From the NCBI RefSeq assembly GCF_001411495.1, contig NZ_CP012982.1, forward strand, positions 3,100,001 through 3,164,000: a stretch of DNA of 64,000 nucleotides, in the 5' to 3' direction. The stretch is from Burkholderia cepacia ATCC 25416 (GTDB lineage Bacteria; Pseudomonadota; Gammaproteobacteria; Burkholderiales; Burkholderiaceae). Position numbers and translations under genes: made by a program. Positions 3-26,648 of this stretch are shown here, one piece after another (position 1 is the stretch's first letter; the number at the start of each line of letters is the position of its first letter). The notes below the pieces were generated by a model. It was not told the DNA's origin. It saw only the letters and a program-made list of their open reading frames with translations, and did not search any database.

Positions 3-674
3 GCGCAGCGGATCGCCGATCACTGGAACCTGTCGCGCGACGCGATGGAGCGCTATGCGCTCGAAAGCCACCGCCGTGCGGTCGCCGCGATCGAGGCCGG
101 GCATTTCAAGCGGGAGATCGTGCCGCTCGAAGGCGTGCTGCACGACGAGACGCCGCGCCCCGACACGTCGCTGGAAAAGATGGCGACGCTCGAGCCGCTG
201 ACACCGGGCGGCTCGCTGACGGCCGCCGTCGCGAGCCAGACCTGCGACGCGGCCGCGGCGCTGCTGATCGTGTCGGAGGACGCGTTGAAGCGCTACGGCC
301 TCACGCCGCGCGCACGCATCCATCACCTGAGCGTGCTGGGCGACGATCCGCTGTGGATGCTCACCGCGCCGATCCCGGCGACCCGGGCCGCGTTGAAGAA
401 GAGCGGGCTCGACTGGTCGCAGATCGACGTCGTCGAGATGAACGAGGCGTTCGCGTCGGTCGCGCAGGCGTGGCTGGCCGATACGCGTTTCCCGCATGAA
501 AGGACCAACCCGAACGGCGGCGGCATCGCGCTCGGCCATCCGCTCGGCGCGACCGGTGCGCGGCTGATGACGACGCTGCTGCACGAACTGGAACGCACCG
601 GCGGTCGTTACGGATTGCAGACGATGTGCGAAGGCGGCGGCCTCGCGAACGTCACGATCATCGAGCGCCTGTGA
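3..674 (+). CDS. acetyl-CoA acetyltransferase (thiolase), 5' end outside window
   Basis: The reading frame is open to the left edge, and the residues before the first internal ATG (position 45) already read like thiolase, so the true start lies upstream of the window. The visible part is the C-terminal half. It includes the catalytic His motif GHPLGATGARL and the second catalytic Cys in CEGGGLANVTI just before the stop. Thiolases of this type cleave 3-ketoacyl-CoA with CoA in beta-oxidation. It heads a run of + strand genes with very short spacing, so it probably belongs to the same catabolic operon as the SDR and acyl-CoA dehydrogenases that follow. The exact substrate cannot be told from sequence. 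Confidence 0.9.
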   Translation, partial: AQRIADHWNLSRDAMERYALESHRRAVAAIEAGHFKREIVPLEGVLHDETPRPDTSLEKMATLEPLTPGGSLTAAVASQTCDAAAALLIVSEDALKRYGLTPRARIHHLSVLGDDPLWMLTAPIPATRAALKKSGLDWSQIDVVEMNEAFASVAQAWLADTRFPHERTNPNGGGIALGHPLGATGARLMTTLLHELERTGGRYGLQTMCEGGGLANVTIIERL

Positions 675-715
675 GCGCGTCACTTTCACGATCTCACGAT
701 CCACGAGGCACCAGC

Positions 716-1594
716 ATGGGAATCTGTAACGGACGCACCGTCATCATCACCGGCGCGGGCGGCGGGCTCGGGCGCGAATATGCGCTCGCGTTCGCGGCCG
801 AAGGCGCGGCGGTCGTCGTCAACGACATCCGGCACGAGGCCGCGCAGGCCGTGTGCGACGAGATCGCACGACGCGGCGGCAGCGCGCTTGCGAATGCGGA
901 CGACATCACGCGCGTCGAAACGGCGCAGCGGATCGTCGACGCGGCCCGCGAAGCGTTCGGCGATGTGCACGTGCTCGTCAACAACGCGGGCATCTGCCGC
1001 GACAAGATGTTCACGAGCATGACCGAAACCGACTGGGACGACGTGATGCGCGTGCACCTGCGCGGCCACTTCTGCCTGTCGAGCGTGCTGGCGCGCGTGT
1101 GGCGCGACGCGGCGAAGGCGGGCCACGCGGTCGACGCGCGGATCGTCAACACGAGTTCCGGCGCCGGCCTGCAAGGCTCGATCGGCCAGTCGAACTACGG
1201 CGCGGCGAAGGCCGGCATCGCCGCGCTCACGCTGATGCAGGCGGCCGAGCTGCAGCGCTACGGCGTGCGCGTGAACGCGCTCGCGCCGGCCGCGCGCACG
1301 TCGATGACCGAAGGCGTGTTCGCCGACATGATGAAGAAGCCCGAGGACGGCGGCTTCGACTATTTCGACCCGGCCAACGTCGCACCGCTCGTCGTGTGGC
1401 TCGGCAGCGCGCTGTCGGCCGACGTGACGGGCCAGGTGTTCGAGGTCGCGGGCGGGATGATCGCGGTCGCGGAAGGCTGGCGCACGGGCCCGAGCGTCGA
1501 CCGCGGCGCGCGCTGGGCGGCGGCCGAGATCGGCCCGGCGGTTGCGCGGCTGCTCGCCGAGGCGCGGCCCGCGCAGCGCGTGTACGGGAGCTGA
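716..1594 (+). CDS. SDR-family hydroxyacyl-CoA dehydrogenase-like protein
   Basis: This is a 292-residue classical SDR. The N-terminal nucleotide-binding motif TGAGGGLG follows a hydrophobic strand, NNAG is present, and the active-site pattern is Ser followed by YGAAK. The start at 716 is chosen because SDR homology begins at once there; the frame is open further upstream, but that stretch overlaps the thiolase end and has no SDR character. The long C-terminal tail after the Rossmann core resembles the dehydrogenase part of peroxisomal multifunctional enzyme type 2. That fits oxidation of a 3-hydroxyacyl-CoA in beta-oxidation. It lies between the thiolase and the acyl-CoA dehydrogenase genes, with 2 bases before the next start. 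Confidence 0.88.
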   Translation: MGICNGRTVIITGAGGGLGREYALAFAAEGAAVVVNDIRHEAAQAVCDEIARRGGSALANADDITRVETAQRIVDAAREAFGDVHVLVNNAGICRDKMFTSMTETDWDDVMRVHLRGHFCLSSVLARVWRDAAKAGHAVDARIVNTSSGAGLQGSIGQSNYGAAKAGIAALTLMQAAELQRYGVRVNALAPAARTSMTEGVFADMMKKPEDGGFDYFDPANVAPLVVWLGSALSADVTGQVFEVAGGMIAVAEGWRTGPSVDRGARWAAAEIGPAVARLLAEARPAQRVYGS

Positions 1595-1596
1595 GG

Positions 1597-2928
1597 ATGG
1601 ATCTGGCGCTCACCGACGAACAGGCGATGATCCGCGACGCGGCCGCCGACGTGCTTGCCGAACGCAGCGCGTCCGCCGACGTGCGCCGCGCACTCGAGCT
1701 GATGGCCGGCCGCGACGATGCGCTGTGGGCTGCATTGGCTGGCGAGCTCGGCTGGAACGCGCTTGCGCTGCCGGAGGCGGCGGGCGGGCTCGGGCTCGGC
1801 GCGGTCGAGCAGGCGGTGCTGATGGAACAGCTTGGCCGGCGCATCGCGTGCGTGCCGTATTTTTCGACCGCGTGCCTCGCGGCGACCGCGCTCGCGGGCT
1901 GCGACACGTCGCTGGCGACCGGCTGGCTCGCGAAGATCGCCGAAGGCGCATGCAGCGCGACGCTGGCGCTGCCGTTCGACTGGCCGTTCGGCGAGCCAGG
2001 TGGGGCGCGGGTCGGCCGGCCATATGGCCGGCCGGGTGCCAATGCGTTCGGCGCATCTTTCGGCGAGTCGTTCGACGAACCGGCCAGTGCGCGACCGCTT
2101 CCGTTCATCGCGGAAGAAACCGCGGCCGGCTTTGCATTGTCCGGCGTCGCAGCACAAGTGCTCGACGGTGCGCGCGCCGACCTGCTGCTGGTTCCGGCGC
2201 GGATCGCGAACGAAGGGCAGTCGGTCGGCCTGTTCGCGATCGACATGACTGCCGGCGCAGCCGGCGTTGCGGTGACGCCGCTCGATACGCTCGACGCGAC
2301 GAGGCCGCTCGCACGGATTGCGCTCGACGACGTGCGCGTGAGCCGCGACGCGCTGATTGCGGGCCGCGACGCGGCGCAGGTGCTCGAACGCGCCGCATGG
2401 TTCGCGGCGCTCGCGCTGGCCGCCGAACAACTCGGCGGCGCACAGCAATGCCTCGATCTGACGCTCGACTACACGAGCCAGCGCGTGCAGTTCGGCCGCG
2501 CGATCGCGTCGTTCCAGGCCGTCAAGCACCGTTGCGCGCAGATGATGGTGCTGATCGAATCGGCGCGCTCGGCCGTGCTCGGCGCCGCGCATGCGTGGGA
2601 CGCGGAGGCCGGCAGCGTGGTGCCGGGCAACGCATTGCGTGCCGACATCGCCGCGGCGAAATCCGCCGCGAACGACGCGTACGCGTTTTGCGCACAGGAA
2701 GCGATCCAGTTGCACGGCGGCGTCGGCTTTACGTGGGAATACGACCCGCATCTCTACTTCAAGCGCGCGCAGGCGTCGGGCGCGCAGTTCGGCAGCACGC
2801 CGCAACTGCTCGAATGGATCGCGTCCCATGCGATCGAAGGCGGCGACGCGCACCGCGACGACGCGCCCGACGCCGCGGTTGCGGCGCCCGCCCGCCCGTC
2901 CGCCGCACGCGCAGGAGCCCTTCAATGA
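1597..2928 (+). CDS. acyl-CoA dehydrogenase, first of an adjacent pair
   Basis: The 443-residue product has the acyl-CoA dehydrogenase layout: helical N-terminus beginning MDLALTDEQAMIRDAA, middle beta domain, and C-terminal helical domain with the conserved HGGVGFTWEYD motif. It would introduce an alpha-beta double bond in an acyl-CoA and pass electrons to ETF. It is longer than usual for the family because residues ~130-165 hold a Gly/Pro/Phe-rich stretch; the DNA there carries a 22-bp perfect palindrome at 2013-2034. The stop overlaps the start of a second acyl-CoA dehydrogenase. Adjacent pairs like this form alpha2-beta2 enzymes in actinobacterial steroid degradation, so a heteromer is plausible but inferred. 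Confidence 0.9.
   Translation: MDLALTDEQAMIRDAAADVLAERSASADVRRALELMAGRDDALWAALAGELGWNALALPEAAGGLGLGAVEQAVLMEQLGRRIACVPYFSTACLAATALAGCDTSLATGWLAKIAEGACSATLALPFDWPFGEPGGARVGRPYGRPGANAFGASFGESFDEPASARPLPFIAEETAAGFALSGVAAQVLDGARADLLLVPARIANEGQSVGLFAIDMTAGAAGVAVTPLDTLDATRPLARIALDDVRVSRDALIAGRDAAQVLERAAWFAALALAAEQLGGAQQCLDLTLDYTSQRVQFGRAIASFQAVKHRCAQMMVLIESARSAVLGAAHAWDAEAGSVVPGNALRADIAAAKSAANDAYAFCAQEAIQLHGGVGFTWEYDPHLYFKRAQASGAQFGSTPQLLEWIASHAIEGGDAHRDDAPDAAVAAPARPSAARAGALQ
2013..2034. repeat. 22-bp perfect palindrome inside the acyl-CoA dehydrogenase gene
   Basis: CGGCCGGC, CATATG and GCCGGCCG form a 22-base perfect palindrome in frame within the coding sequence. It encodes part of an Arg-Pro-Tyr-Gly-Arg-Pro segment in an unusually long, low-complexity insert. 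It may be a small palindromic element captured in frame, or simply a product of strong GC bias. Confidence 0.6.
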
Positions 2929-4127
2929 ACAGCGAAACGCGCGAACAGCAATTGCGGCACGAAGTGGCCGACTGGGTGCAATCGCACCTGACCGGCGAAT
3001 TCGCGTGCCTGAAATATCGCGGCGGCCCCGGCGACGAGGAAGCGTTTCCCGACCTGCGCAAGGCATGGGAGCGGGAACTGGCGCAGGGCGGCTGGACCGG
3101 CCTCGGCTGGCCGACCGCCGCCGGCGGGCGCGGCTTCACGGTGGCCGAACAGGTGATCTTCCACGAGGAATACGCGCGCGCCGGAGGCCCGGGAAGGATG
3201 GGCCACATCGGCGAAGGGCTGCTCGGGCCGACGCTCGTCGCATGCGGCACCGACGACCAGCGCGCGCGCTTCCTGCCCGGCATTCTCGCCGGCACACAGT
3301 TCTGGTGCCAGGGCTACTCCGAGCCGGGCGCGGGTTCCGACCTGGCCAACGTGCGCACGCGTGCCGAACAGGATGCGGACGGTACGTGGCGCGTCCACGG
3401 CCAGAAGGTCTGGACGTCGCTCGCGCACGATTCCGACTGGATCTTCGTGCTCGCGCGCACCGATCCCGCGTCGAAGGGCAACAAGGGGCTGTCGTTCCTG
3501 CTGATGCCGCTCGACCAGCCGGGCATCGAGATCCGGCCGATCAGGCAGCTCAACGGCGGCGCGGAATTCAACGAAGTGTTCTTCGACGGCGCGCGCGCGG
3601 AAGCACGCGACCTCGTCGGCGCGCCCGGCGACGGCTGGCGGATCGCGATGACGCTGCTCGGTTTCGAACGCGGGATGTCGACGCTCGGCCAGCAGATGCA
3701 GTTCGTCCGCGAACTCGAATGGGTGATCGACGCCGCGCGCGAATCGGGCGCGGACCGCGACCCGGTGCTGCGGCAGCGGATCGGCCGCGCATGGGCCGGG
3801 CTGCGCGTGATGCGCTACAACGCGCTGCGCATGCTGTCCGGCGCCGACGACGCAGATGGCGGTGCCACCGCGCCGCTGCGTCGCGAGGCATTGATCTACA
3901 AGTATTTCTGGTCGAACTGGCACCGCGACCTCGGCCAGCTCGCGATGGATGTGCTCGGGTCTCGCGCGAACGTGATCGATCCGGCCGACGAAAAGCTCAC
4001 CCATCTGCAGCGCGTATTCCTGTTCTCCCGTGCGGACACGATCTACGCGGGTACCAACGAAATCCAGCTCAACATCATGGCCGAGCGCGGGCTCGGCATG
4101 CCCAGGGAACCACGAGGCACCGCATGA
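2925..4127 (+). CDS. acyl-CoA dehydrogenase, second of the pair
   Basis: This 400-residue protein is a standard-length acyl-CoA dehydrogenase. It has an ACAD signature segment (YSEPGAGSDLAN, flavin/substrate binding region) near residue 130, a WTS motif (KVWTSLAH) around residue 160, and the C-terminal YAGTNEIQLNIMAERGLG motif. The start codon overlaps the previous stop (ATGA), which implies translational coupling and fits a two-subunit enzyme made in equal amounts. Electrons would go to an ETF, and etfBA genes lie at 24.4-26.1 kb. The substrate is likely a bulky acyl-CoA judging from the neighbours, but this is inferred. Confidence 0.93.
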   Translation: MNSETREQQLRHEVADWVQSHLTGEFACLKYRGGPGDEEAFPDLRKAWERELAQGGWTGLGWPTAAGGRGFTVAEQVIFHEEYARAGGPGRMGHIGEGLLGPTLVACGTDDQRARFLPGILAGTQFWCQGYSEPGAGSDLANVRTRAEQDADGTWRVHGQKVWTSLAHDSDWIFVLARTDPASKGNKGLSFLLMPLDQPGIEIRPIRQLNGGAEFNEVFFDGARAEARDLVGAPGDGWRIAMTLLGFERGMSTLGQQMQFVRELEWVIDAARESGADRDPVLRQRIGRAWAGLRVMRYNALRMLSGADDADGGATAPLRREALIYKYFWSNWHRDLGQLAMDVLGSRANVIDPADEKLTHLQRVFLFSRADTIYAGTNEIQLNIMAERGLGMPREPRGTA

Positions 4128-4924
4128 CCGAACCCCAGATCCAGAAAGCGCCGGCCTACGTGCCGGGCCACCAGCTGCTCGCCGGCAAATCGGTGCTGAT
4201 CACGGCCGCCGCCGGCGCCGGCATCGGCTTCGCGGCCGCGCGCCGCTGCGCGGAGGAAGGCTGCCGCGCGCTGTTCATCTCCGACATCCACGAAAAGCGC
4301 CTCGAAGAGGCCGTCGAAACGCTGCGCGCCGAAACGGGGCTGCAACAGGTCTATGGCCGCCTGTGCAACGTCGCGATCGAGGCCGACGTGCAGGCACTCG
4401 TTGCCGACGCCCAGGACAAGCTCGACGGCGTCGACGTGCTGATCAACAACGCGGGGCTCGGCGGGTCGACCCGCATCGTCGATATGGACGATGCCGAATG
4501 GTCGCGCGTGATCGACATTAGCCTCACCGGGACGTTCCGGATGACGCGCGCGATGCTGCCGCACATGCAGGCCCGCGGCCGCGGCGCGATCGTCAACAAC
4601 GCATCGGTGCTCGGCTGGCGCGCGCAAGCGGAACAGGCGCACTACGCGGCCGCGAAGGCGGGCGTGATGGCGCTCACGCGCTGCGCGGCGCTCGAGGCGT
4701 CGCCGTACGGCGTGCGTATCAACGCGGTCGCGCCGAGCATCGCGATGCACGATTTTCTGAAGAAGTCGGCCCCGGCCGACCTGCTGAATCAACTAGCGTC
4801 GCGCGAAGCCTTCGGGCGCGCCGCCGAAGTCTGGGAGGTCGCGAACGTGATGGTGTTCCTTGCAAGCGATTACGCGTCGTACATGACGGGCGAAGTGCTG
4901 TCGGTCAGCAGCCAGCACGCATGA
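4124..4924 (+). CDS. ipdF: IpdF-like SDR (steroid HIP-CoA ring-degradation reductase family)
   Basis: This 266-residue SDR has an unusual cofactor motif, TAAAGAGIG, together with [18 protein letters not shown], the catalytic [15 protein letters not shown] segment, and a C-terminus ending [12 protein letters not shown]. From memory, these segments match the actinobacterial IpdF family closely, more closely than generic FabG proteins. IpdF acts on a hydroxylated bicyclic CoA ester from steroid rings C and D. The start overlaps the preceding stop (ATGA), and the stop overlaps the MaoC gene that follows. Assignment to IpdF is by recalled family resemblance; a database search would settle it. Confidence 0.8.
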
Positions 4925-5409
4925 TGAGCACGACCCTCGACCCCGTGCGCGCGACGCCCCGCGTGTTCGCGCATCCCGGCGAACTCGCGGCGGCCGTCGG
5001 CGACACGCTCGGCGCGAGCGCGTGGCTCGCGATCGACCAGATCCGCATCGACGGCTTCGCCGACGCGACCGGCGATCACCAGTGGGTGCACGTCGACCCG
5101 GTGCGCGCGAAGGACGGCCCGTTCGGCGCGTGCATCGCGCACGGCTACCTGACGCTGTCGCTCGTCAATCATTTCCTGCCGCAGATCGTGCGTATCGACG
5201 GCGCGCGGCTCGGCGTCAACTACGGCTGCGACAGGATCCGTTTCCCCGCGCCGGTGAAGGTCGGCGCGCGCGTGCGCGGCGTCGGCGAGCTGCTGCGCGT
5301 CGAGCCGCTCGACGGCGGCGTGCAGGCATGGATTCGCGTGACCGTCGAGATCGAAGGCGAAGCGAAACCCGGCTGCGTGGCCGACACGATCAGCCGTTAC
5401 TACTTCTAG
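4921..5409 (+). CDS. MaoC-like (R)-specific enoyl-CoA hydratase
   Basis: The 162-residue product is a single hot-dog-fold MaoC hydratase. The hydratase motif [15 protein letters not shown] (catalytic Asp and His) begins near residue 45, and AHGYLTLSL follows. It hydrates trans-2-enoyl-CoA to 3-hydroxyacyl-CoA. There are two possible ATG codons, 4921 and 4924; the first overlaps the upstream stop. Its place between an IpdF-like SDR and a thiolase fits one round of beta-oxidation on an unusual acyl-CoA. Confidence 0.88.
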
Positions 5410-5426: not shown

Positions 5427-6632
5427 ATGGAAGACGCAGTCATCGTTTCCGTCGCACGCACGCCGATCGGCAAGGCGTTTCGCGGCATGTTCAACGACAC
5501 CGAGGCGCCCGCGCTGGGCGGCCACGTGGTGCGCACCGCGCTCGAGCGCGCTGGCGTCGCGCCGGCCGACGTCGACGACGTGCTGATCGGCTGCGCCGCG
5601 CAGCAGGGCACGCAGGGCTACAACATCGGCCGCCTGTCGGCGGCGGCGGCCGGGCTGCCGGCATCGGTGCCCGGCATGGCGATCGACCGCATGTGCTCGT
5701 CGGGCCTGATGTCGATCGCGAGCGCCGCGCGCAGCATCGGCGCGGGCGATGCGCGGATCGTGGTCGCGGGCGGCGTCGAGTCGATCTCGCTCACGCAGAA
5801 CAAGCACAAGAACGCGTATCGCGCGCGTTCGCAGGCCGTGCTCGACCACCAGCCGGCCGCCTACATGGCGATGATGGAAACGGCCGAGATCGTGTCGCGC
5901 CGCTACGGAATCTCGCGTGCGGCGCAGGACGAATTCGCGCTGCAGAGCCACCAGCGCACGGCCGACGCCCAGGCGGCCGGCCGCTTCGATGCGGAAATCG
6001 CGCCGCTCGATGTGCGGCGCGCGCTGTTCGACAAGGAAGGCAACCCGGCCGGCCACGAGGATCTGCGTGCGGCGCGCGACGAAGGCGTGCGCGCCGACAC
6101 GACGGCCGAACGGCTCGCGGGGCTGAAGCCGTCGTGGAGCGGCGGCAAGGTCGTCGAGCAGGGCGAGTTCGTGACGGCCGGCAATGCGTCGCAACTGTCG
6201 GACGGCGCGGCGGCCGTGGTCGTGATGTCGCGCAGCGAGGCGCTACGCCGCGGGCTGACGCCGCTCGGCGCGTTCCGCGGCCTCGCGGTGGCCGGCTGCG
6301 AGCCCGACGAGATGGGCATCGGCCCGGTGTTCGCGATTCCGAAGCTGCTCGCGCGCTTCGGGATGACCGTCGGCGACATCGGGCTGTGGGAGCTGAACGA
6401 GGCGTTCGCGTGCCAGGCGCTGTACTGCCGCGACACGCTCGGCATTCCCGACGCCCGGCTGAACGTCGACGGCGGTGCGATCGCGCTCGGCCATCCGTTC
6501 GGGATGTCGGGTACGCGGATGACGATGCACGCACTGCTCGAAGGCGCGCGGCGCGGCGTACGGCACGCGGTCGTGACGATGTGCATCGGCGGCGGGATGG
6601 GTGCCGCCGCGCTGTTCGAGGTCGGCGCATAG
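5427..6632 (+). CDS. acetyl-CoA acyltransferase (thiolase)
   Basis: This 401-residue thiolase is full length. The nucleophilic Cys is C90 in DRMCSSGLM, the His motif is [10 protein letters not shown], and the second Cys lies in the C-terminal CIGGGMGAA motif. It would thiolyse a 3-ketoacyl-CoA to acetyl-CoA or propionyl-CoA and a shortened acyl-CoA. It begins 17 bases after the MaoC gene and ends the beta-oxidation part of the operon. It differs from the partial thiolase at the left edge (Phe replaces Leu in the His motif), so the two probably act on different substrates. Confidence 0.93.
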
Positions 6633-6823: not shown

Positions 6824-7801
6824 ATGAAACGAACCTTGCCCGGACTCGCGATGTCGGCGCTCGTGCTCGGCGCCGCGCTGTTCGCGTTTTCACCGCGCCC
6901 GCTGCCGGCGTTCCCGGTCACCGCGATCCATGCGGACCGGCTGCAGATCAACGGGCTCGCCCGGGCCGGCGCGCGCATCGTCGCGGTCGGCGAACGCGGC
7001 GTGATCCTGCTGAGCGACGACTCGGGCGCCCGCTGGCGGCCGGCATCGGTCGCGCCCGACCAGGCATCGACGCTCACGCAGGTGCGTTTCATCACGCCGA
7101 CGCTCGGGATCGCGGTCGGCCACGACGGCCGGATTGTCCGCAGCGACGACGCCGGCATGCACTGGCATGAAGTGCACATCGACCATGAGCATTCCGATCC
7201 GCTGCTGTCCGTGTGGGGTGCGGCGGGCGGCCCGCTGTTCGCGGCCGGCAGCTTCGGCCAGCTGCTGCGCTCGGACGACGCGGGCCTCACGTGGCAGCCG
7301 CTGAAGACGCCGGCCGGCGACCGTCACCTCAACGCGATCGTCGGCGACGGCCACGGCAACCTGCTGGTCGCGGGCGAGAGCGGCACGCTGCTGCGCTCGA
7401 CCGACAACGGTGCCACGTGGGACAAGCTGCCGTCGCCGTACGCCGGTTCGCTGTTCGGCGCGCTGATGCTCGCGAACGGCGACTGGGTCGCGTACGGGAT
7501 GCGCGGCAACGTGGTGCGCAGCACCGATCGCGGCGCGACCTGGACGCATGTGGACAGCCACGTGCCGGTGTCGTACTTCGGCGCGACCCAGCTCACCGGC
7601 GGCGAACTCGTGCTGGTGGGCCAGGGCGGCGCGATCGTCGCATCGCGCGACGGCGGGCTGACCTTCGACGTGCGCAAGCTCGGCGGCGTGCAGAGCCTCG
7701 CGGCCGTGCTCGACATGGGCCACGGCGCGCTGCTGCTCGGCGGCGAGGCCGGCGTCGCGCCGCTGGCCGGCGCGCTTGCGTCGACGCCGTCGCCGTCCTG
7801 A
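6824..7801 (+). CDS. YCF48/BNR-repeat periplasmic protein
   Basis: The 325-residue product starts with a signal-like N-terminus (two Lys/Arg, then a hydrophobic stretch to residue ~23). Repeated blades of the form SDDSGARW, SDDAGMHW, SDDAGLTW, STDNGATW, STDRGATW and SRDGGLTF follow, which is the pattern of YCF48/BNR beta-propellers. A GGAG-type ribosome site precedes the ATG. It lies directly before an RND/MMPL-family transporter. The same pairing, with DUF1302 and DUF1329 proteins, recurs in clusters for hydrophobic substrates, so a role in assembly or transport across the envelope is inferred, not shown. Confidence 0.8.
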   Translation: MKRTLPGLAMSALVLGAALFAFSPRPLPAFPVTAIHADRLQINGLARAGARIVAVGERGVILLSDDSGARWRPASVAPDQASTLTQVRFITPTLGIAVGHDGRIVRSDDAGMHWHEVHIDHEHSDPLLSVWGAAGGPLFAAGSFGQLLRSDDAGLTWQPLKTPAGDRHLNAIVGDGHGNLLVAGESGTLLRSTDNGATWDKLPSPYAGSLFGALMLANGDWVAYGMRGNVVRSTDRGATWTHVDSHVPVSYFGATQLTGGELVLVGQGGAIVASRDGGLTFDVRKLGGVQSLAAVLDMGHGALLLGGEAGVAPLAGALASTPSPS

Positions 7802-13678: not shown

Positions 13679-13708
13679 TTCAAGGCGTTTCCTTTTGGTG
13701 GGTGAACC

Positions 13709-13954: not shown

Positions 13955-13959
13955 GCGGC

Positions 13960-13989: not shown

Positions 13990-14102
13990 CGTCGGCAATT
14001 CGCGGCCCGCGCCGCGCGTGCGGCTTTCAATTCCTTCAGCGTCTTTCAGCGGGCCAACGGCCGTGCCAGCCGGACTTTCGTCGCGCGACGCCAGGAGGCG
14101 CC

Positions 14103-17739: not shown

Positions 17740-18522
17740 TTAGATAAAGCGGACGTCGCAACTGCCGATGCCGGAGATATGCATCGACAGTGCGTCGCCG
17801 GCCGTGACCGGAATCAGTTTCGCGAGCGAGCCGGACAGCACGATCTCGCCGGCGAGCAGCGGCACGTCGTACGCGGCGAGCGTGTTCGCGAGCCACGCGA
17901 CCGCGTCGGCGGGATGGCCGAGCGCCGCGTCGCCGCGGCCTTGCGCGACGGGCTCGCCGTTCTTCTCGATCGTCATCTCGCACGCGGCGAGATCGAGCGT
18001 GCGCGGGTCGACGCGCGTTTCGCCGAGCACGTATACGCCGCACGACGCGTTGTCGGCGACGGTGTCCTCGATGCGGATCGCCCAGTCGCGGATGCGCGAG
18101 TCGACGATCTCGAAGCAGGGCGCGACGGCGGCCGTCGCGGCGATCACGTCGGTGCGGTCGATGCCGGGGCCGCGCAGGTCGCGCGCGAGGATGAACGCGA
18201 TCTCGCCCTCGGCGCGCGGCGCGATCAGCGAATCGGCGGCGATCGCTTCGCCGGCCGCGTAGTGCATGCCCGACAGCAGGATGCCGAAATCGGGCTGGCG
18301 CACGTTCAGCATGTCCTGCACGGCCTGGCTCGTCACGCCGATCTTCTTGCCGACGACCGCTTCGCCGTGTTCGACGCGGCGTTCGATGAAGCGCTGCTGG
18401 ATGCGGTACGCGTCGTCGAGCGACAGGCGGCGCGCACGGCCCGACAGCGGCGCGACCGGTGCGCGCGCGTGCCATGCGGCGTACAGCTCGTCGCCGAGCG
18501 TCGTATGCAGGCGGGAAGACAT
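17740..18522 (-). CDS. mhpD: 2-keto-4-pentenoate (2-hydroxydienoate) hydratase
   Basis: The 260-residue product belongs to the fumarylacetoacetate-hydrolase-like hydratases. It shows VGKKIGVTS near residue 60, the Glu-rich metal site in [12 protein letters not shown], and [10 protein letters not shown] near the C-terminus. It adds water to 2-hydroxypenta- or hexa-2,4-dienoate, made by the ring-cleavage hydrolase, and hands 4-hydroxy-2-oxoacid to the aldolase. In steroid degradation this is HsaE. It follows the DUF1329 gene by ~100 bases and starts the three-gene lower pathway block. Confidence 0.95.
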
Positions 18523-18624: not shown

Positions 18625-20007
18625 TCAGTTGCCCGAACTGCGGATCGCGTCAGGTGAGAAATACGCCTCGTTGAACTGCGGGCTGTTGTCGAGCTTCGGC
18701 ATCGGGCCTTCGTTCGTCAGGCGGTCGGCCATGTACGCGCCGGAGATCAGGTCGTGGAAGAACACCGCGCTCGGGTAGAACACCTTCGCGTCGTATGCGT
18801 ACAGCGACGTCGCGACGTTGGTGCGCCACAGCTGGCCGCGCGCGTCGTAGTTGTCCGCGAGCAGCGATTGCCACGAATCCTCGTCGATGTACAGCACGCG
18901 CTTCGCGTACTGGTGACGGTAGCCGCTCTTCAGCGTGGCCTGCAGCACCCACACGCGATGCAGTTCGTAGCGGATGTAGCTCGGGTTCTCGTGGCCCTTG
19001 GTCAGCAGTTCGCCGTACTTCACCGCGCTGTCCATCACCTTGTAGTTGTTGTACGGCACGTAGATCTCGCGCTTGCCGACGATCTTCCAGTCGTAGCGAT
19101 CGCCGGGGCCGTTGTACAGGCGGTCGTCGTCGACCGTGCGGAAGCCGCCCGGGCCCTGCGGCTGGTCGTAGCCGTATTCAGGCGCCTGGCGCACGCGCCG
19201 CGTACCGGGGTTGTACATCCACGTGCGCGACGAGTTGTCCGCGCCGGCCTTGTCCCAGTTCGTGAAGCCGACGATCAGCGAGCCGCGGTCGGACAGCGGC
19301 AGCTCCGTCGCGTTGCGGTAGTACGTGCGGTTGTTCAGGTCGCTCTTCACGTCGTACTTGCCGACGTTGCGCGGCGAGTAGATGTCGTAGCGCACCTTGC
19401 CCCACGCGATGTTGCCGTCGGAGTAGACGACCGCCTGGTCGTAGGTGGCCTGCTCGGTGCCGATCGACGACGAGAAGCGCTGGTTCCACAGCAATTCGGC
19501 GGCGGTCTTCGGGATCGGATAGGGCACCGTCGGCGGCGCGTTCGTGAGGCCGTTCGCGTCGGACGTCATCGTCGAATCCGGCGCGTACGTGCGAATGTCC
19601 TTGTAGACGGAATCCGGATAGCGGAAGTCGCGGTGGGTCGGGTAGACGATGATCTTGAACGTGGCCGGATAGCGCTTGAACATCGCCTTCTGGCCGTCGG
19701 TCAGGTGCTCCGCGTACTGCGCCATGTTCTCCGCGGTGATCGTCGCGACCGGCTTCTCGCTCGCGTACGGATCGGGGTAACGGCTGCCGCGCTTGTACTG
19801 CACGTCCGGCGGCGTGCCGAGCCACTTGCCCGACCACTCGGGCACGCCGCTGTCCTTGCTCGCGGCGCGCACGGCGCCCATCGGGGTCAACTGGCCGTCG
19901 AGCGCCTTCAGGTCGTCCGGCGTGACCTTCGGGTACGACGCCGTCGCGGCGAGTGCGCACGCGGCGATCACCGACGCGCGCAGGAGGGGGAGACGAATTC
20001 GCTTCAT
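18625..20007 (-). CDS. DUF1329 family periplasmic protein
   Basis: The 460-residue product has an N-terminal signal (MKRIRLPLLRASVIAACAL) that might be read as a weak lipobox. The DUF1329 body follows: a Tyr/Asp-rich LolB-like fold with segments such as YPTHRDFRYPD and the C-terminal FHDLISGAYMADRL. The start at 20007 is chosen because the frame upstream lacks family sequence. DUF1329 genes are almost always next to DUF1302, and the pair recurs with YCF48 and RND genes in catabolic clusters for hydrophobic compounds. A carrier between outer membrane and RND pump is a reasonable but unproven role. Confidence 0.88.
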   Translation of the reverse strand: MKRIRLPLLRASVIAACALAATASYPKVTPDDLKALDGQLTPMGAVRAASKDSGVPEWSGKWLGTPPDVQYKRGSRYPDPYASEKPVATITAENMAQYAEHLTDGQKAMFKRYPATFKIIVYPTHRDFRYPDSVYKDIRTYAPDSTMTSDANGLTNAPPTVPYPIPKTAAELLWNQRFSSSIGTEQATYDQAVVYSDGNIAWGKVRYDIYSPRNVGKYDVKSDLNNRTYYRNATELPLSDRGSLIVGFTNWDKAGADNSSRTWMYNPGTRRVRQAPEYGYDQPQGPGGFRTVDDDRLYNGPGDRYDWKIVGKREIYVPYNNYKVMDSAVKYGELLTKGHENPSYIRYELHRVWVLQATLKSGYRHQYAKRVLYIDEDSWQSLLADNYDARGQLWRTNVATSLYAYDAKVFYPSAVFFHDLISGAYMADRLTNEGPMPKLDNSPQFNEAYFSPDAIRSSGN

Positions 20008-20045: not shown

Positions 20046-21611
20046 TCAGAAGTGGTAGGTCGCCGTGGCCAGCACGTAGTCGCGATCCGCGAGCGGGCGC
20101 GTGACCGGGTTCGGCGAGCCGAGGAACTTCGCATAGACGAGCGACAGCTGCAGGTTGCTCAGGCGCGTGAACGTCACGCCGGCCGTCACGCGGTGGTCGC
20201 CCTGGCCCGTCAGCGAGCCGAGCGCGCCGGCGAGCGGCGACGTGCCCGTCAGGTCGTGCGTGTAGGTCAGCGGGACGTCGAGATCCCAGCCGTTGAACAC
20301 GTTCTTGTAGCTGAGCGTCCACGCGATCTCCATCGCGAGCGCGTTGCGCGAGTTGGCGAGCGTGGTCGACCCGTCGAGCTCGGAGATGCTGCCCGCATGC
20401 ACGTACGTCAGTTCGCCGATCAGCGACTGCGAATTCGCGAGGAAGCTCGGCCCGATCGAGTAGATGCCGGACAGGTTGGTCTGCAGCACGTTCGCGCGGG
20501 TCGACTGCGGGCCCGTCGCGGTATTGACGAGCACCGCCGCGCCCTGGCGGTACGACACTTCGCCCGCGACGTTCACCGGGCCGACCTGCGTCGAGAAGCT
20601 CGCGCCGGTCAGCTTGATGTTGCTGAAGTAGGTCTGCTGGTACTGGAGCGTCGGGAAGTACGTGGTGACGACACTCGGGTTCATGTCGTTGTAGTGCAGG
20701 TGGTACAGGCCCAGCTCGGTGTCGCCGAGCACGCGAAAGCGCGCGCCGATCCCCCACTGGTTACGTGCGCTCGGCTTGTCGTCGGGGCCGCGCGGAATGA
20801 TCATCCCGCCCGGGCCGATGATGAACTGCGCGCCCGGGCCCGTTACGTCGGAGTAGCTCCAGTACGTGCCGGGCGCGGTCAGCCGGTTCTGCTGGTACGA
20901 GAACTGGTAGTAGCCGAGCAGGCTGAAGTTCGGCGTGATCTGCCACTGCGTCGAGATCTGCGGCACCGGCAGCAGGATGTCCTTCACCTCGGCGCCGGCC
21001 ATGTACGACTTGGTCGCGTCGGACGGCCCCTGTGCACCCGCGATGTTCGGGAAGAACAGGCTTTCGCCCCACGCGACCACTTGATCGCCGACCTTCACGT
21101 TCAGGCTCGTCGAACCGATGTGGAACGTGTTGTATGCATACGCGGCGAGCAGCGTCGTGTGGCCGCCCGACCAGTAGCGCGCGTCGCTCGTGAAATTGTT
21201 GTACTGGCCCGACTGGTTCACGGTGCCCGGCGCGTCGTTGTAGTTCGGGCGGCGATAGGCCTGGTCGTAGAACGTGTCGGCACGCACGAACACACCCCAG
21301 TCGTCGTGCTTCAGGTTCACTTCGCCGAGCAGGCTGACCTGGTTCTCGATCAGCTTGTTCTTCGCGAAGTTGCGGTCGCCGTCGTCGCCGTTGATGTTCG
21401 CCGGCGTGAGGAGATTGCCGCTCGGTGCGCGGGTGCGCATGCCGAGGCCGTAACTGAGCGTGAACGTGTAGTCCAGCGTCGTGTCGGCGCCCAGCTCGAT
21501 CGTGCTGCCGGCGTGCGCGCCGGGAACGGCGCACGTCAGCAGCGCGGCGGCCAGCGTCGACAGCGTGGCGGTGGCCCGCTTGTCGGTACGGCGCGAAATC
21601 CGTTGTTGCAT
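20046..21611 (-). CDS. DUF1302 family outer-membrane-type protein
   Basis: The 521-residue product begins with a long signal peptide ending at AHA before GSTIELG. It continues with repeated amphipathic beta strands and ends in TATYHF, with the terminal Phe typical of outer-membrane barrels. It shows the DUF1302 hallmarks GDQVVAWGESLFFPN and NVAGEVSYRQGAAVL. A GGAG ribosome site precedes the ATG at 21611; the frame is open upstream but without family sequence. It forms a pair with the DUF1329 gene 38 bases downstream. Passage of a hydrophobic substrate across the outer membrane is inferred. Confidence 0.9.
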   Translation of the reverse strand: MQQRISRRTDKRATATLSTLAAALLTCAVPGAHAGSTIELGADTTLDYTFTLSYGLGMRTRAPSGNLLTPANINGDDGDRNFAKNKLIENQVSLLGEVNLKHDDWGVFVRADTFYDQAYRRPNYNDAPGTVNQSGQYNNFTSDARYWSGGHTTLLAAYAYNTFHIGSTSLNVKVGDQVVAWGESLFFPNIAGAQGPSDATKSYMAGAEVKDILLPVPQISTQWQITPNFSLLGYYQFSYQQNRLTAPGTYWSYSDVTGPGAQFIIGPGGMIIPRGPDDKPSARNQWGIGARFRVLGDTELGLYHLHYNDMNPSVVTTYFPTLQYQQTYFSNIKLTGASFSTQVGPVNVAGEVSYRQGAAVLVNTATGPQSTRANVLQTNLSGIYSIGPSFLANSQSLIGELTYVHAGSISELDGSTTLANSRNALAMEIAWTLSYKNVFNGWDLDVPLTYTHDLTGTSPLAGALGSLTGQGDHRVTAGVTFTRLSNLQLSLVYAKFLGSPNPVTRPLADRDYVLATATYHF

Positions 21612-21764: not shown

Positions 21765-22544
21765 TCATCGCGCGTTCGCCTGTGCCGCCGACAGGAACGC
21801 AGGCCGTTCGCCGCCGCCGTCGAGCCGCAGGTTCGCGCCCGACGTGTACGACGCGTCGGGCGACGCGAGAAAGAGGCACGCGGAGGCAACGTCGTCGGGT
21901 GCCGCGAGGCGGCCGGCGGGAATCGTCGCGCGGATCGCGTCGAGCGCATCGTCGTCGCCGTAGTGGCCTTCGGTGGCCGATTCCGTCTGCACGAGGCTCG
22001 GGCTGATCGCGCACACGCGCACCCGCGGCGCCCACTCGACCGCGAGCGACGTGACCGCATTGACGAGGCCCGCTTTCGCGGCGCCGTACGCGGCCGTGCC
22101 GGGCGACGGCCGCGATGCGCTGACGCTCGCGATGAACAGCATCACGCCGCCTTCGGGCTGCGGCTGCATGATCGCGTTCACGCGCTGCGCGAGCTGCAGC
22201 GGCGCGATCAGGTTCAGCCGCACGATCGATTCGGTGAAGCGCGGCGACGCATCGGCCGCAAGCGCGAACGGCGAGCCGCCCGCGTTGTTGACGAGCACGT
22301 CGAGGCCGCCGGCCTCCGCGCGGATCGTCGCGAGCATCGCGTCGACCTGCTCGATGTCGCGCAGGTCGGCCGCGACGAATGCCGCCTTGCGGCCGCCGGC
22401 CGCGGGCGGCGTGTCGGGCGCGCTGCGTCCGCAGACGAACACGCGCGCGCCCGCCGCGAGAAACCGTTCGGCGATGCGCCGCCCGATGCCCTTGGTGCCG
22501 CCCGTCACGAGCACCGTCTTGCCGCTGTAGTCGAATCCGTTCAT
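21765..22544 (-). CDS. SDR-family oxidoreductase
   Basis: The 259-residue product is a classical SDR: TGGTKGIG at residues ~12-19, NNAGGSPF, Ser in the IASVSASRP segment, and YGAAKAG. A GGAGG site precedes the ATG at 22544. It is the first gene of the leftward operon and is divergent from the meta-cleavage-product hydrolase, with a 139-bp shared intergenic region. It probably oxidises or reduces an alcohol or ketone on the cluster's substrate; FabG-like functions cannot be excluded. Confidence 0.88.
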   Translation of the reverse strand: MNGFDYSGKTVLVTGGTKGIGRRIAERFLAAGARVFVCGRSAPDTPPAAGGRKAAFVAADLRDIEQVDAMLATIRAEAGGLDVLVNNAGGSPFALAADASPRFTESIVRLNLIAPLQLAQRVNAIMQPQPEGGVMLFIASVSASRPSPGTAAYGAAKAGLVNAVTSLAVEWAPRVRVCAISPSLVQTESATEGHYGDDDALDAIRATIPAGRLAAPDDVASACLFLASPDASYTSGANLRLDGGGERPAFLSAAQANAR

Positions 22545-22683: not shown

Positions 22684-23520
22684 ATGACGATCCCCACGAC
22701 GCCGCCGGCCGGCATCTTCACCGACGTGCCGGGCGGCCTGCGCCTGCACCATTACGAGGCGGGCAAAGGCCGGCCCGTGGTGTTCATCCACGGCAGCGGC
22801 CCGGGCGCCAGCGGTTTCAGCAACTTCAAGCACAACGTGCCCGCGTTCGCGGCGGCCGGCCATCGCGCGATCGTCGTCGACCTGCCGGGCTACGGGCAGT
22901 CGTCGAAGCCGTCCGACGTCGCCTATACGCTCGATTTTTTCGTCGGCGCGCTGCATGCGCAACTGGACGCGCTCGGGATCGGGCCGGCCGTGCTGCTTGG
23001 CAATTCGCTCGGCGGCGCGATCGCGCTCAAGTACGCGCTCGATTACCCGGACGAAGTCGACGGGCTGATCATGATGGCGCCGGGCGGCGTCGAGGATCGC
23101 GACACTTATTTCCGGATGGAAGGCATCCAGCGGATGGTGAAGCTGTTCACCAATCGCCAGATGAATGACGACACGATGCGCGAGCTGCTCACGCTGCTCG
23201 TGCACGATCCGGCGATCGTCACCGACGCGCTCGTGGCCGAGCGGATGAAGGTGTGCGTCGAGCAGCCGACCGAAGTGCTCTCGACGATGAGCGTGCCGAA
23301 CCTGACCGGTGCGCTCGGCGACCTGCGCTGCCCGGTGCTGGGTTTCTGGGGAACGGACGACCGTTTTAATCCGGTCGGCGGCGCGCTGAAATTCCTCGAA
23401 CACTGTCGTGACGCGCGCTTCGTGCTGATGAACCGGTGCGGCCACTGGGTGATGGTGGAACACGCCGACTATTTCAATCGGGAATGCCTCGATTTTCTTG
23501 CGGCGCGGAATACGCGATAA
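22684..23520 (+). CDS. meta-cleavage-product hydrolase (HsaD/TesD/BphD type)
   Basis: The 278-residue product is an alpha/beta hydrolase. It has HGSGPGASG near residue 36, the nucleophile S108 in LLGNSLGGAIA, the acid D226 in FWGTDDRFNP, and catalytic H254 in RCGHWVMVEH. This combination is characteristic of C-C hydrolases that cut meta-cleavage ring products, such as HsaD/TesD in steroid rings and BphD in biphenyl. The product dienoate would go to the hydratase, aldolase and acetaldehyde dehydrogenase of the divergent operon. A GGAG ribosome site precedes the ATG. No extradiol dioxygenase is in the window, so the ring-cleavage step must be encoded elsewhere. Confidence 0.9.
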   Translation: MTIPTTPPAGIFTDVPGGLRLHHYEAGKGRPVVFIHGSGPGASGFSNFKHNVPAFAAAGHRAIVVDLPGYGQSSKPSDVAYTLDFFVGALHAQLDALGIGPAVLLGNSLGGAIALKYALDYPDEVDGLIMMAPGGVEDRDTYFRMEGIQRMVKLFTNRQMNDDTMRELLTLLVHDPAIVTDALVAERMKVCVEQPTEVLSTMSVPNLTGALGDLRCPVLGFWGTDDRFNPVGGALKFLEHCRDARFVLMNRCGHWVMVEHADYFNRECLDFLAARNTR

Positions 23521-23586: not shown

Positions 23587-24375
23587 ATGAAGCTCATCGA
23601 AGACCTGTTCGACCTGCGCGGCAAGGTGGCCGCGATCACCGGCGGCGCGCGCGGCATCGGCGCGGAGACCGCGCGCACGCTGGCCGCGGCCGGTGCGAGC
23701 GTCGCGATTCTCGACGTGCTGTCGCAACCGGCGGAAGCGCTCGTCGAGGAGATCCGCGCGCAGGGCGGCCAGGCCGCGTTCTGGTCGCTCGACGTGACGC
23801 AGGAGGCCGACGTGGCACGCGTGTTCGGCGAGATCGTCGCGCGCTTCGGGCGCCTCGACGTGCTCGTGAACAACGCGGGCATCGAAGGCCACAACGTGCC
23901 GACGCACGAGCTCACGCTCGCGCAGTGGCAGCGCGTGCAGGACGTGAACGTCAACGGCGTGTTCCTGTGCACGCGTGCCGCGATTCCGCATATCGACGCG
24001 GCCGGCGGCGGGTCGATCGTGAACCTGTCGTCGATGTACGGGATCGTCGGCGGGCCCGACGTGCCCGCGTATCACGCGTCGAAGGCCGCGGTGCGGATGA
24101 TGGCGAAGGTCGACGCGATGCTGTACGCGGCGAAGAACATCCGTGCGAACTCGGTGCATCCCGGCTATATCCGTACGCCGATGCTCGAGGAAGCGTTCCG
24201 CCAGATGGGGCAGGACCCGGACAACGTGTTCGGTTATCTGCAGACGCACGTGCCGATGGCGAAGATCGGCAGCCCGCGCGACATCGCGGCCGGCATCCTG
24301 TATCTCGTGTCGCCGGCCGGCCGTTATGTGACGGGCGCGGAGCTCGTGATCGACGGCGGTTATACCGCGCGCTGA
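23587..24375 (+). CDS. SDR-family oxidoreductase
   Basis: This 262-residue classical SDR has [25 protein letters not shown] and [11 protein letters not shown]. The N-terminus [13 protein letters not shown] and the family pattern suggest an alcohol dehydrogenase acting on a cyclic compound (hydroxysteroid or cyclohexanol types). The start at 23587 follows a GGAGACGAC site; an earlier in-frame ATG at 23527 is less likely. It sits between the ring-cleavage hydrolase and etfB in the same direction, so it is probably part of that operon. Confidence 0.87.
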
Positions 24376-24407
24376 CGCGGCGATCGCACCACAAGGGGGA
24401 CGCGCAG

Positions 24408-25157
24408 TTGAAAGTGCTCGTGGCAGTGAAACGCGTGGTCGACGCGAACGTGAAGGTCGGCGTGAAATCCGACCGGACGGGCGTCGACATCGCGAACGTG
24501 AAGATGTCGATGAACCCGTTCGACGAGATTGCGGTGGAGGAGGCCGTGCGGTTGAAGGAGGCCGGTGTCGTGACCGAAGTGGTCGCGGTGTCGGTCGGCG
24601 TCGCGCAGGCGCAGGAAACGCTGCGCACGGCGCTCGCGATCGGCGCGGATCGCGCGATCCTCGTCGAATCGAACGACAGCGTCGAACCGCTGGGCGTCGC
24701 GAAGGTGTTGAAGGCGCTGGTCGACAAGGAACAGCCGTCGCTCGTGATCCTCGGCAAGCAGGCGATCGACGACGATTCGAACCAGACCGGGCAGATGCTG
24801 GCCGCGCTGGCGGGTTTGCCGCAGGCGACGTTTGCATCGAAGGTGGGGGTGGCCGACGGGCGTGCGACGGTTGCGCGCGAAGTCGACGGCGGCGCGGAAA
24901 CGCTGTCGCTTCGACTGCCGGCCGTGGTGACCACCGACCTGCGTTTGAACGAACCGCGCTACGTGACCTTGCCGAACATCATGAAGGCGAAGAAGAAGCC
25001 GCTCGAGATCGTGCAGCCCGGCGACCTTGGCGTGGATGTGACGCCGCGTTTGAAAGTGCTCAACGTGAACGAGCCGCCGAAGCGCGCAGCCGGCGTGAAG
25101 GTGCCGGACGTGCAGACGCTGGTCGCGAAGCTGAAGACCGAAGTCAGGGTGCTGTAA
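24408..25157 (+). CDS. etfB: electron transfer flavoprotein, beta subunit
   Basis: The 249-residue product matches Etf[21 protein letters not shown] at the start and the [19 protein letters not shown] segment. The [16 protein letters not shown] (AMP-binding) motif is also present. The start is TTG at 24408, with GGGGGA upstream; no ATG fits. With EtfA it accepts electrons from acyl-CoA dehydrogenases, such as the pair at 1.6-4.1 kb, and passes them to ETF:quinone oxidoreductase. The gene lies within the catabolic operon, but this may also be the main cellular ETF. Confidence 0.96.
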
Positions 25158-25173
25158 CAGGGAACGCAACGAA

Positions 25174-26118
25174 ATGACGATTCTGGTAATTGCGGAACAC
25201 GACAACGCGTCGATCAGGGCGGCGACACTCAATGCGGTGGCGGCTGCGCGGGTGCTCGGTGCGGCAGGCGGCGGTGACGTGCATGTTCTGGTCGCGGGCC
25301 ACAACGCGCAAGCGGCGGCCGACGCGGCCGCGAAGATCGCAGGTGTGTCGAAGGTGTTGCTGGCCGATGCGCCGCAACTCGAAGCAGGTCTCGCGGAAAA
25401 CGTCGAAGCGACCGCGTTGAACATCGCGAAGGACTATTCGCATATCCTCGCGCCGGCGACTGCGTACGGCAAGAACGTCGCGCCGCGTATCGCCGCGAAG
25501 CTGGACGTCGCGCAGATCTCCGAGATCACGGCGGTCGTGTCGGTCGACACGTTCGAGCGCCCGATCTACGCGGGCAACGCGATCGCGACGGTGCAGTCGG
25601 GCGACCCGGTCAAGGTCATCACGGTGCGCGCGACGGGTTTCGATCCGGTGGCGGCGGAAGGCGGCAGCGCGTCGGTCGAGAAGATCGAGGCAGCGGCAGA
25701 CGCCGGCAAGTCGCAGTTCGTCAGCCGTGAAGTGACGAAGCTGGACCGTCCGGAACTCACCAGCGCGAAGATCATCGTGTCGGGCGGCCGTGGTCTGGGC
25801 AGCGGCGAGAACTACACGAAGGTGCTGGAGCCGCTGGCCGACAAGTTGAGCGCGGCACTCGGCGCATCGCGCGCGGCAGTCGACGCCGGCTACGTGCCGA
25901 ACGACTACCAGGTCGGCCAGACCGGCAAGATCGTCGCGCCGCAGCTTTACATCGCGGTGGGCATCTCGGGTGCGATCCAGCATCTGGCCGGCATGAAGGA
26001 TTCGAAGGTGATCGTCGCGATCAACAAGGACCCGGAAGCACCGATCTTCAGCGTGGCCGACTACGGCGTGGTCGGCGACCTGTTCACGCTCGTGCCGGAA
26101 GCGGTCGCGGCGCTCTGA
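25174..26118 (+). CDS. etfA: electron transfer flavoprotein, alpha subunit
   Basis: The 314-residue product is EtfA. The N-terminal nucleotide-binding-like domain starts [14 protein letters not shown]. The C-terminal FAD domain carries [29 protein letters not shown], and the final [16 protein letters not shown] and NKDPEAPIF motifs. It starts 16 bases after etfB and two bases separate it from the next gene. Confidence 0.97.
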
Positions 26119-26120
26119 CG

Positions 26121-26648
26121 ATGCCGCTGTTCGAATTCAACGGGATGCGGCCGCGCGTCGATCCGTCCGCGTACGTCGACCCGAGCGCGGTCGTGATCGG
26201 CGACGTGACGATCGGCGCACGCTGCTACATCGGCCCGCATGCGAGCCTGCGCGGCGACTTCGGCGCGATCGTCGTCGAAGACGGCAGCAACGTGCAGGAT
26301 GGCTGCGTGCTGCACGTCGGGATCGGCGAGACGTGCCGGCTCGGCGTCAATAGTCACATCGGCCACGGTGCGATCGTGCATGGCGCGACGCTCGAACCCG
26401 ACACGATGATCGGAATGAATGCGGTCGTGATGGACGGCGCGACCATCGGCGCCACGACGATCGTCGCCGCGTGCGCATTCGTGAAGGCCGGCTACGACGT
26501 GCCGCGCGGCGTGCTGCTCGCGGGCATGCCGGGGCGCGTCGTGCGTCGGCTGAGCGACGCGGAGATCGACGCGAAGGCGAACGGCACGCGGATTTATCAG
26601 CAGCTGGCGGCGGATTGCCTGAGGACGATCAGGCGGATCGACGCGTGA
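26121..26648 (+). CDS. gamma-carbonic-anhydrase-like / PaaY-type hexapeptide protein
   Basis: The 175-residue product is a left-handed beta-helix protein with hexapeptide repeats (VIGDVTIGARCYIGPHASLRG). It carries His residues at gamma-carbonic-anhydrase metal positions (LHVG, NSHIGHGAIVHG). The C-terminal helix follows RVVRRLSDAEI. It resembles PaaY/CaiE proteins, which accompany CoA-dependent catabolism; PaaY is a thioesterase that recycles CoA from dead-end intermediates. It starts two bases after etfA, so it is in the same operon. CoA recycling is inferred; carbonic anhydrase activity is the alternative. Confidence 0.88.
   Translation: MPLFEFNGMRPRVDPSAYVDPSAVVIGDVTIGARCYIGPHASLRGDFGAIVVEDGSNVQDGCVLHVGIGETCRLGVNSHIGHGAIVHGATLEPDTMIGMNAVVMDGATIGATTIVAACAFVKAGYDVPRGVLLAGMPGRVVRRLSDAEIDAKANGTRIYQQLAADCLRTIRRIDA

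Follow-up and report, generated by a model that had tools for sequence, protein, structure and literature searches.

A 64,000-nucleotide stretch of the Burkholderia cepacia ATCC 25416 genome (hereafter the window; C2:3100001-3164000 in an 8.6-Mb, four-contig assembly) raises the question of whether the steroid-type catabolic genes at its left end belong to a full steroid-ring degradation pathway and, if so, where the rest of that pathway lies. The earlier note on this DNA had proposed a 9,10-seco type locus at positions 3-26648 and, as KstD, HsaA-C and IpdA-C were lacking, had left two explanations: the locus continues outside, or the substrate is a different polycyclic compound. Sequence comparison indicates, at a probability that we put at roughly 85%, that C2 carries a complete gene set for the aerobic 9,10-seco degradation of steroid rings, that the downstream part of this set lies in the window, and that a further module stands at the window's right end; the likely substrates are C19 androgen-type steroids. 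Gene calls came from a script based on codon usage and were then matched to NCBIfam, Pfam and PDB (Table 1).

The genes called missing lie just upstream of the window. On one strand, an LLM-type monooxygenase, HsaA, KstD, an HsaB-like protein, a KshB-like protein, FadD3 and a short-chain dehydrogenase/reductase (SDR) are followed by a gap, and then by HsaC, IpdA, IpdB, an EchA20-like protein and a second enoyl-CoA hydratase, an IpdC-like protein, two acyl-CoA dehydrogenases and a FadA6-like thiolase, the 3' part of which opens the window. The reported absence of KstD, HsaA-C and IpdA-C is therefore correct for the window and incorrect for the genome. KstD, HsaC and FadD3, which the note had suggested seeking in the flanking DNA, are all present there, demonstrating the first of its two explanations.

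Within the window, every gene class that the note had named, from KshA to DUF1302, was found in its place by profile and structure matches. Searches with the steroid profiles matched KshA, IpdF and HsaE-G, and the HsaD model is the best one for the hydrolase, although under its cut-off. The identity of KshA is firm: its top three solved relatives in PDB are all KshA (384-396 bits), while the next scores 68.6 bits. (PF00848 failed as a probe for KshA; PF19298 picks it up.) We equate the PRK-numbered models with named mycobacterial genes, taking PRK07801-type thiolases to be FadA6 and PRK07831 to be the IpdF model. The proposed extent of 3-26648 stands for the gene classes but not as a single block: positions 11769-15589 are occupied by genes for a cold-shock protein, an IF-1-like protein, a hydrolase and a phosphoesterase, along with a small gene. 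On plasmid pSBC2-1 of Caballeronia sp. SBC2, the genes from the LLM-type monooxygenase (LLM16) to window gene g23 form an unbroken run of ~40 kb in the same order, and no match to the window's cold-shock, IF-1-like and hydrolase genes was found within that run.

Some of the scores weigh against a steroid pathway. HsaA, HsaC, KstD and the HsaD-, HsaB- and KshB-like proteins do not reach the curated cut-off of the model that each matches best, and the nearest solved relatives of the hydrolase are BphD (182 bits) and then HsaD (159 bits); we name it HsaD-like from its gene context, and its identity is less certain than that of KshA. The NCBIfam HsaA, HsaC and KstD models presumably rest mainly on actinobacterial proteins; the closest solved structures to KstD and IpdAB are steroid enzymes. 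Another polycyclic substrate (a diterpenoid, hopanoid or aromatic compound), degraded via enzymes shared with steroid pathways, would be in line with the fit of the hydrolase, hydratase, aldolase and dehydrogenase to aromatic meta-cleavage models as well, and with the DUF1302/DUF1329/RND set known in a monoterpene degrader (PMC6394551). We consider this highly improbable, because KshA, KstD, HsaA, HsaC, IpdA, IpdB and FadD3 are clustered and steroid enzymes are the best matches of each; taken together, these genes led us to reject an aromatic or diterpenoid substrate class. A whole-genome search for CasG (steroid-24-oyl-CoA synthetase), the sole side-chain gene tested, gave a best score of 301.5 bits against a cut-off of 750.

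With the order of reactions taken from the known pathway, and provided that the genes are expressed, the set would work as follows: (i) KstD would convert steroid nuclei to 1,4-diene-3-ketones, (ii) KshA, with the KshB-like reductase, would open the nucleus through 9alpha-hydroxylation, (iii) HsaAB, HsaC and the HsaD-like hydrolase would hydroxylate and cleave ring A, (iv) the HsaEFG-type enzymes would channel the small product into central metabolism, and (v) FadD3 would activate the C/D-ring acid, for beta-oxidation by IpdAB and the IpdC-, EchA20-, FadE-, FadA6- and IpdF-like proteins. The same enzyme types, by profile, make up the actinobacterial KstR2/HIP regulon, which contains ipdABC, fadD3, fadE, fadA6, ipdF and echA20; unlike in that regulon, the gene order here is proteobacterial and the candidate regulator is an AraC-family gene.

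The gap in the upstream half, between the fadD3 side and hsaC, contains a 24.1-kb prophage-like insert (C2:3067046-3091177). The DNA of this genome aligns to the empty site of locus L013 up to C2:3067059 and resumes from C2:3091164; L013, L014, L018, L021 and L102 all show the empty junction. The insert ends bear TATTTGATTGAAAC and TATTTGATTGATAC (13 of 14 bases identical), the right end falling in the first codons (5' end) of a PIN-domain gene, and the G+C content is 60% versus 70% in the flanks. Among the ten insert frames searched are matches to an integrase, an endolysin, an HNH endonuclease and two phage structural proteins, one of them a baseplate wedge protein; the element thus combines an integrase, attachment-like end repeats and phage structural genes. 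No tRNA as attachment site was found in L007, L009, L011 or L012. Across 35 genomes, the kstD-hsaC distance varies from 4.8 to 62.8 kb (30.9 kb here), while the hsaC-kshA distance is 17.5-17.9 kb (standard deviation 78 bases). Given this variation in spacing, the kstD-hsaC gap is a site of DNA gain and loss, and the hsaC-kshA half is rigid. The largest distances at this place, ~62 kb, are those of G008 and G051.

The distribution of the core was followed in a panel of 65 Burkholderia genomes, the present one among them. KshA orthologues occur in 36, as do those of KstD (one partial, in G024), and full HsaC in 35; G024, a KshA-positive assembly of 480 contigs, gave no HsaC match. Four more genomes carry 5' pieces of HsaC (G059, G026, G002 and G057), that of G057 possibly being a contig end, as the assembly is 82% complete and in 1100 contigs. 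Twenty loci with full-length HsaC (L013-L032; 94-98% identity) are all labelled Burkholderia, including B. lata, B. cepacia and B. cenocepacia. When KshA is mapped onto a 60-genome rpoB tree, its pattern requires at least 12 changes, seven of them forced by well-supported branches, versus 19.3 with shuffled labels.

The locus itself was inspected in five KshA-negative genomes (G026, G002, G019, G059 and G037) and compared in 12 KshA-positive ones; in the other KshA-negative genomes, relics were sought via whole-genome searches with single genes. All five negative regions retain the cold-shock and IF-1-like genes. Fragments of hsaF persist in four (G026, G002, G059 and G037) and of kshA in two (G059 and G037); etfB and etfA are gone save one etfA fragment in G002, and the PaaY-like gene is whole in G002, fragmented in G026, G019 and G037, and absent in G059. 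The steroid core has been lost repeatedly within the genus, and in the relic-bearing lineages the truncated remains fix the direction as loss. An order-wide survey of 300 genomes found KshA in two (both Burkholderia) and g54-like proteins in three, numbers so small that the survey says little.

Two genes were set aside as steroid genes on these distributions: the alpha/beta hydrolase at 12872-13678, because it is matched in only 21 of the 65 genomes and because two steroid-negative genomes, G026 and G037, retain it, and, as a steroid regulator, the upstream LysR gene (C2:3055090-3055950), because it is retained in steroid-negative G002, G019 and G026. Separately, hsaC is cut short in loci L082 (B. 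paludis MSh1; residues 1-138) and L069 (B. stagnalis LMG 28156; residues 1-224), where the remaining core genes were not seen; these may be the same as G026 and G059, and hence not extra cases. Six genomes (G005, G051, G053, G055, G056 and G058) carry a second KshA (61-62%) and KstD (57-58%) pair on another contig, which suggests a second steroid locus. Distant KshA-like proteins (38-39%) occur in G018, G029, G032 and G051, the G029 copy with one internal stop codon, and a second one (44-45%) in G018, G032 and G051.

Is the pathway also decaying here, split by the prophage-like insert and heading for loss as in its relatives? The 24.1-kb insert does lie between two halves of the set, the genus has lost the set repeatedly with relics left behind, and the rpoB sister, G009, is without KshA. 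We nevertheless think this quite unlikely: the core genes are called as open frames, KshA, KstD and HsaC being stop-free and 86-99% like the copies of relatives, and none of the core genes is interrupted by the insert, which occupies a place that differs in length in all 35 genomes measured.

Table 1. Features of the steroid gene set and its neighbours (window positions unless prefixed C2; scores in bits where so marked).
Feature	Position	Strand	Evidence
HsaA	upstream		best model 396 bits, under cut-off 450; next model 226 bits
KstD	C2:3059161-3060918		solved 3-oxosteroid 1-dehydrogenase 7p18, 653 bits; NCBIfam model 585 vs cut-off 788
HsaB-like flavin reductase	upstream		best model RutF, 102 bits, under cut-off
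KshB-like reductase	upstream		best model PaaE, 243 bits, under cut-off
FadD3	C2:3062580-3064166		824 bits, over cut-off 657
HsaC	C2:3091777-3092673		309 bits, under cut-off 450; next, biphenyl-type model 282
IpdA and IpdB	C2:3092683-3094384		best solved relatives 6co6 and 6con
IpdC-like protein	upstream, after gap		nitronate monooxygenase family
FadA6-like thiolase, 3' part	45-674	+	full gene C2:3099523-3100674; PRK07801 704.6 bits vs cut-off 591
SDR, PRK07791 type	716-1594	+	476 bits vs 373
Acyl-CoA dehydrogenase, IpdE2-like best match	1597-2928	+	NF050027 180 bits, under cut-off 450; Pfam
Acyl-CoA dehydrogenase, likely partner subunit	2925-4127	+	profile searches including Pfam
IpdF-like SDR	4124-4924	+	PRK07831 458 bits vs cut-off 336
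MaoC-type hydratase	4921-5409	+	profile match
Thiolase	5427-6632	+	TIGR01930 418 bits vs 241
YCF48/BNR protein	6851-7801	+	profile match; compared with AmeC
RND transporter, HAE3/MMPL type	7866-10331	+	TIGR00921 171.5 bits, under cut-off 352; Pfam MMPL 104 bits
KshA, 3-ketosteroid 9alpha-hydroxylase oxygenase	10399-11478	+	PF19298 (KshA_C) 247.4 bits vs cut-off 23.3
HsaF-type 4-hydroxy-2-oxo acid aldolase	15779-16810	-	over curated cut-off
HsaG-type acylating aldehyde dehydrogenase	16827-17726	-	over curated cut-off
HsaE-type hydratase	17740-18522	-	over curated cut-off
DUF1329 protein	18625-20007	-	profile match; compared with AmeB
DUF1302 protein	20046-21611	-	profile match; compared with AmeA
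SDR, PRK07856 type	21765-22544	-	381 bits vs 255
HsaD-like meta-cleavage-product hydrolase	22684-23520	+	HsaD model 201.6, BphD model 194.3, both under cut-off
SDR	23587-24375	+	profile match
etfB and etfA	24414-26118	+	Pfam
PaaY-like hexapeptide protein	26121-26648	+	223 bits, under cut-off 320
AraC-family regulator	39620-40678	-	candidate regulator of module
Small protein, Dabb protein, zinc alcohol dehydrogenase, two SDRs (g41 to g45)	40846-44610	+	profile matches
EthD-domain protein (g53)	52558-53274	-	profile match
SnoaL_4 protein, BaiE fold (g54)	53326-53838	-	BaiE 3.5e-20; TM 0.79-0.83
SnoaL_4 protein, BaiE fold (g55)	54051-54551	+	BaiE 1.1e-15; TM 0.79-0.83
Three SDRs (g56, g57, g58)	54602-57138	+	profile matches
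Epimerase-like protein and three SDRs (g60 to g63)	59627-63124	-	profile matches
SnoaL_4 protein (g64)	63128-63544	-	profile match; no BaiE match

The end of the steroid set at 26648, as earlier proposed, is not borne out, since right-hand genes extend beyond it. The set at 52558-63544 appears to belong with the core, probably together with that at 39620-44610. In the steroid-negative regions, g41-g44 are gone in all five and g46-g48 are retained; g45 is whole in G026, in fragments in G002 and absent in three; and the AraC gene, our candidate for the regulator of the module, is represented by fragments alone in three and by nothing in the other two. The regions of G002, G019 and G059 extend past the phosphoenolpyruvate carboxykinase gene (PEPCK, g59), which all three keep, and there g53-g58 and g60-g64 are gone save fragments (g53, g58 and g60 in G002; g54 and g60 in G059). 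The fetched G026 and G037 regions end before g53-g64, so that only g55 and g62 could be tested in these genomes. Across the panel, g55 occurs in 34 of 36 KshA-positive genomes and one of 29 KshA-negative ones (G057), with a 40-residue piece in steroid-negative G033, and g62 in 28 of 36 and none of 29 (28/65 overall); Fisher values, which ignore kinship, are 6e-15 and 2e-11, respectively. Two other genes lie in this part of the window: a TonB-dependent receptor (37067-39055), kept in four of the five steroid-negative regions and for that reason probably outside the pathway, and a protein bearing PF15984, the bacterial collagen middle-region domain (30618-31445; 207 bits).

Several observations count against the link between module and core. 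Among seven independent pairs of genomes, g55 differs the same way as the core in five, the opposite way in none, and shows no difference in two (p 0.0625); for g62, five or six go the same way and none the opposite (p 0.03-0.06). After correction for kinship, the module is thus borderline consistent with following the fate of the core. Two KshA-positive genomes are without g55 and eight without g62, and in several of the 12 KshA-positive regions one or another module gene is missing, in some of them because the region is too short.

Gene order in Cupriavidus provides a line of evidence independent of co-distribution. Locus L054 reads fadD3, g55-like (47%), g56, g64, g63, g62, g60, g61, g53, hsaC; L053 has the L054 order from g56 onward, and in both loci the homologues other than the g55-like one stand at 59-83%. 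L048 carries g60, g61 and g53 homologues upstream of hsaC, so that in all three loci a g53 homologue stands directly upstream of that gene. Weighing against the link, of the five Cupriavidus loci for which upstream DNA is available, two (L050 and L052) show no module genes there. In Paraburkholderia loci (62-64%) and on the Caballeronia plasmid (61%), hsaB and kshB flank an SDR of the g62 type. The plasmid stretches of Caballeronia and Cupriavidus compared here are unannotated in their records.

These data bear on the possibility that 52558-63544 is a separate catabolic cluster merely travelling with the steroid core. The borderline association after tree correction, the position of PEPCK inside the module, the unrelated genes that separate the module from the core, and the genomes and Cupriavidus loci without module genes would all fit such a cluster. 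With module homologues immediately upstream of hsaC in Cupriavidus, g62-type SDRs inside Paraburkholderia and Caballeronia steroid loci, and fragments persisting in steroid-negative G002 and G059, plus the g55 piece in G033, we judge it unlikely, and read the module as probably part of the steroid gene set.

What might the module do? NCBIfam yielded no specific function for its SDRs. The best solved relative by sequence of both g54 and g55 is BaiE, a bile acid 7alpha-dehydratase, at ~30% identity (for g55, 1.1e-18 by profile), and AlphaFold models (mean pLDDT 94 for g54 and 92 for g55) give BaiE as the top fold match. The columns corresponding to the BaiE catalytic residues, which we take to be Tyr30, Asp35 and His83 and matched by our own counting, are invariant: Y21, D26 and H75 among 55 g54 sequences, and Y27, D32 and H81 among 49 g55 sequences. 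Unlike BaiE, g54 and g55 sit in an aerobic steroid-degradation context. As LinA and scytalone-dehydratase-like structures share the fold lists with BaiE, ranking behind it, the fold alone leaves a steroid substrate unfixed; g64 has only a weak match to a putative scytalone dehydratase.

The closest parallel is in Comamonas testosteroni TA441, where, according to PMC13101464, 9,17-DOHNA derivatives lose their C12beta hydroxyl through the action of SteC, a SnoaL/NTF2 dehydratase likened to BaiE, and steABCD share one cluster with scd genes. By analogy, a Ste-like role for the right-hand module appears most likely. As described there, the 120-kb TA441 mega-cluster (tes, scd, ste) also has two separated halves, with ring A/B cleavage and a CoA-activating gene at one end and the C/D-ring scd genes plus steABCD at the other (PMC13101464). 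The present locus differs in that its gap holds a prophage-like insert, its hydroxyl-handling candidates, instead of standing in the same cluster, lie ~60 kb away from hsaC, and CasG was not found over the cut-off. We read the module as handling ring hydroxyl groups, in which case 52558-63544, probably with 39620-44610, would contribute steroid oxidation, reduction and dehydration steps. More tentatively, and with some doubt, the right-hand set (39620-44610 and 52558-63544) may be an unrecognised module by which Burkholderia and Cupriavidus process steroid hydroxyl groups, two of its members being BaiE-type dehydratases. Together with the core, and without CasG, it would then allow feeding on hydroxylated C19 nuclei rather than whole bile acids.

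The genes for YCF48-like, HAE3-type RND, DUF1329 and DUF1302 proteins stand as two separated pairs in the cluster. They resemble AmeABCD of Castellaniella defragrans, which comprises a DUF1302 outer-membrane protein, a DUF1329 protein and an HAE3-type RND transporter, and whose deletion lowers monoterpene tolerance (PMC6394551); AmeC is given as COG4447 (PMC6394551), which we equate by inference with the YCF48-like protein. Unlike AmeABCD, the four genes here are split over two places. By analogy, the set may serve steroid export or uptake, both being possible. The RND protein, beside the steroid genes, has a weak Pfam sterol-sensing-domain match (26.6 bits versus 22.3).

The kind of pathway is known, and was predicted earlier from Burkholderia genomes (PMC4810484, PMC5790920). 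A 2016 survey gives Burkholderia as a predicted steroid degrader lacking most cholate side-chain genes, and reports growth of Cupriavidus necator ATCC 17699 on testosterone (PMC4810484); B. cepacia GG4 is named among steroid-degrading bacteria in a metagenome study from 2018 (PMC5790920); and TesB of B. cenocepacia J2315 is listed in work on the degradation of androgens in sewage, published in 2016 (PMC5062160). New here are the variable kstD-hsaC gap versus the rigid hsaC-kshA half, the repeated loss marked by relics, and the co-distributed BaiE-type module, of which no description was found among the open-licence papers searched.

The analysis places the pathway in the genome, shows that a prophage-like element can split the set, and names the neighbouring genes that share its fate. 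The latter are candidates for ring-hydroxyl removal, the task of SteABCD in Comamonas. An ecological point comes from B. pyrrocinia P10, in which four of seven KEGG steroid-degradation genes are up with peanut root exudate (PMC10061817). If the module does process hydroxylated C19 nuclei, these soil and rhizosphere bacteria could use C19 intermediates leaked by bile-acid degraders, or plant-derived steroids.

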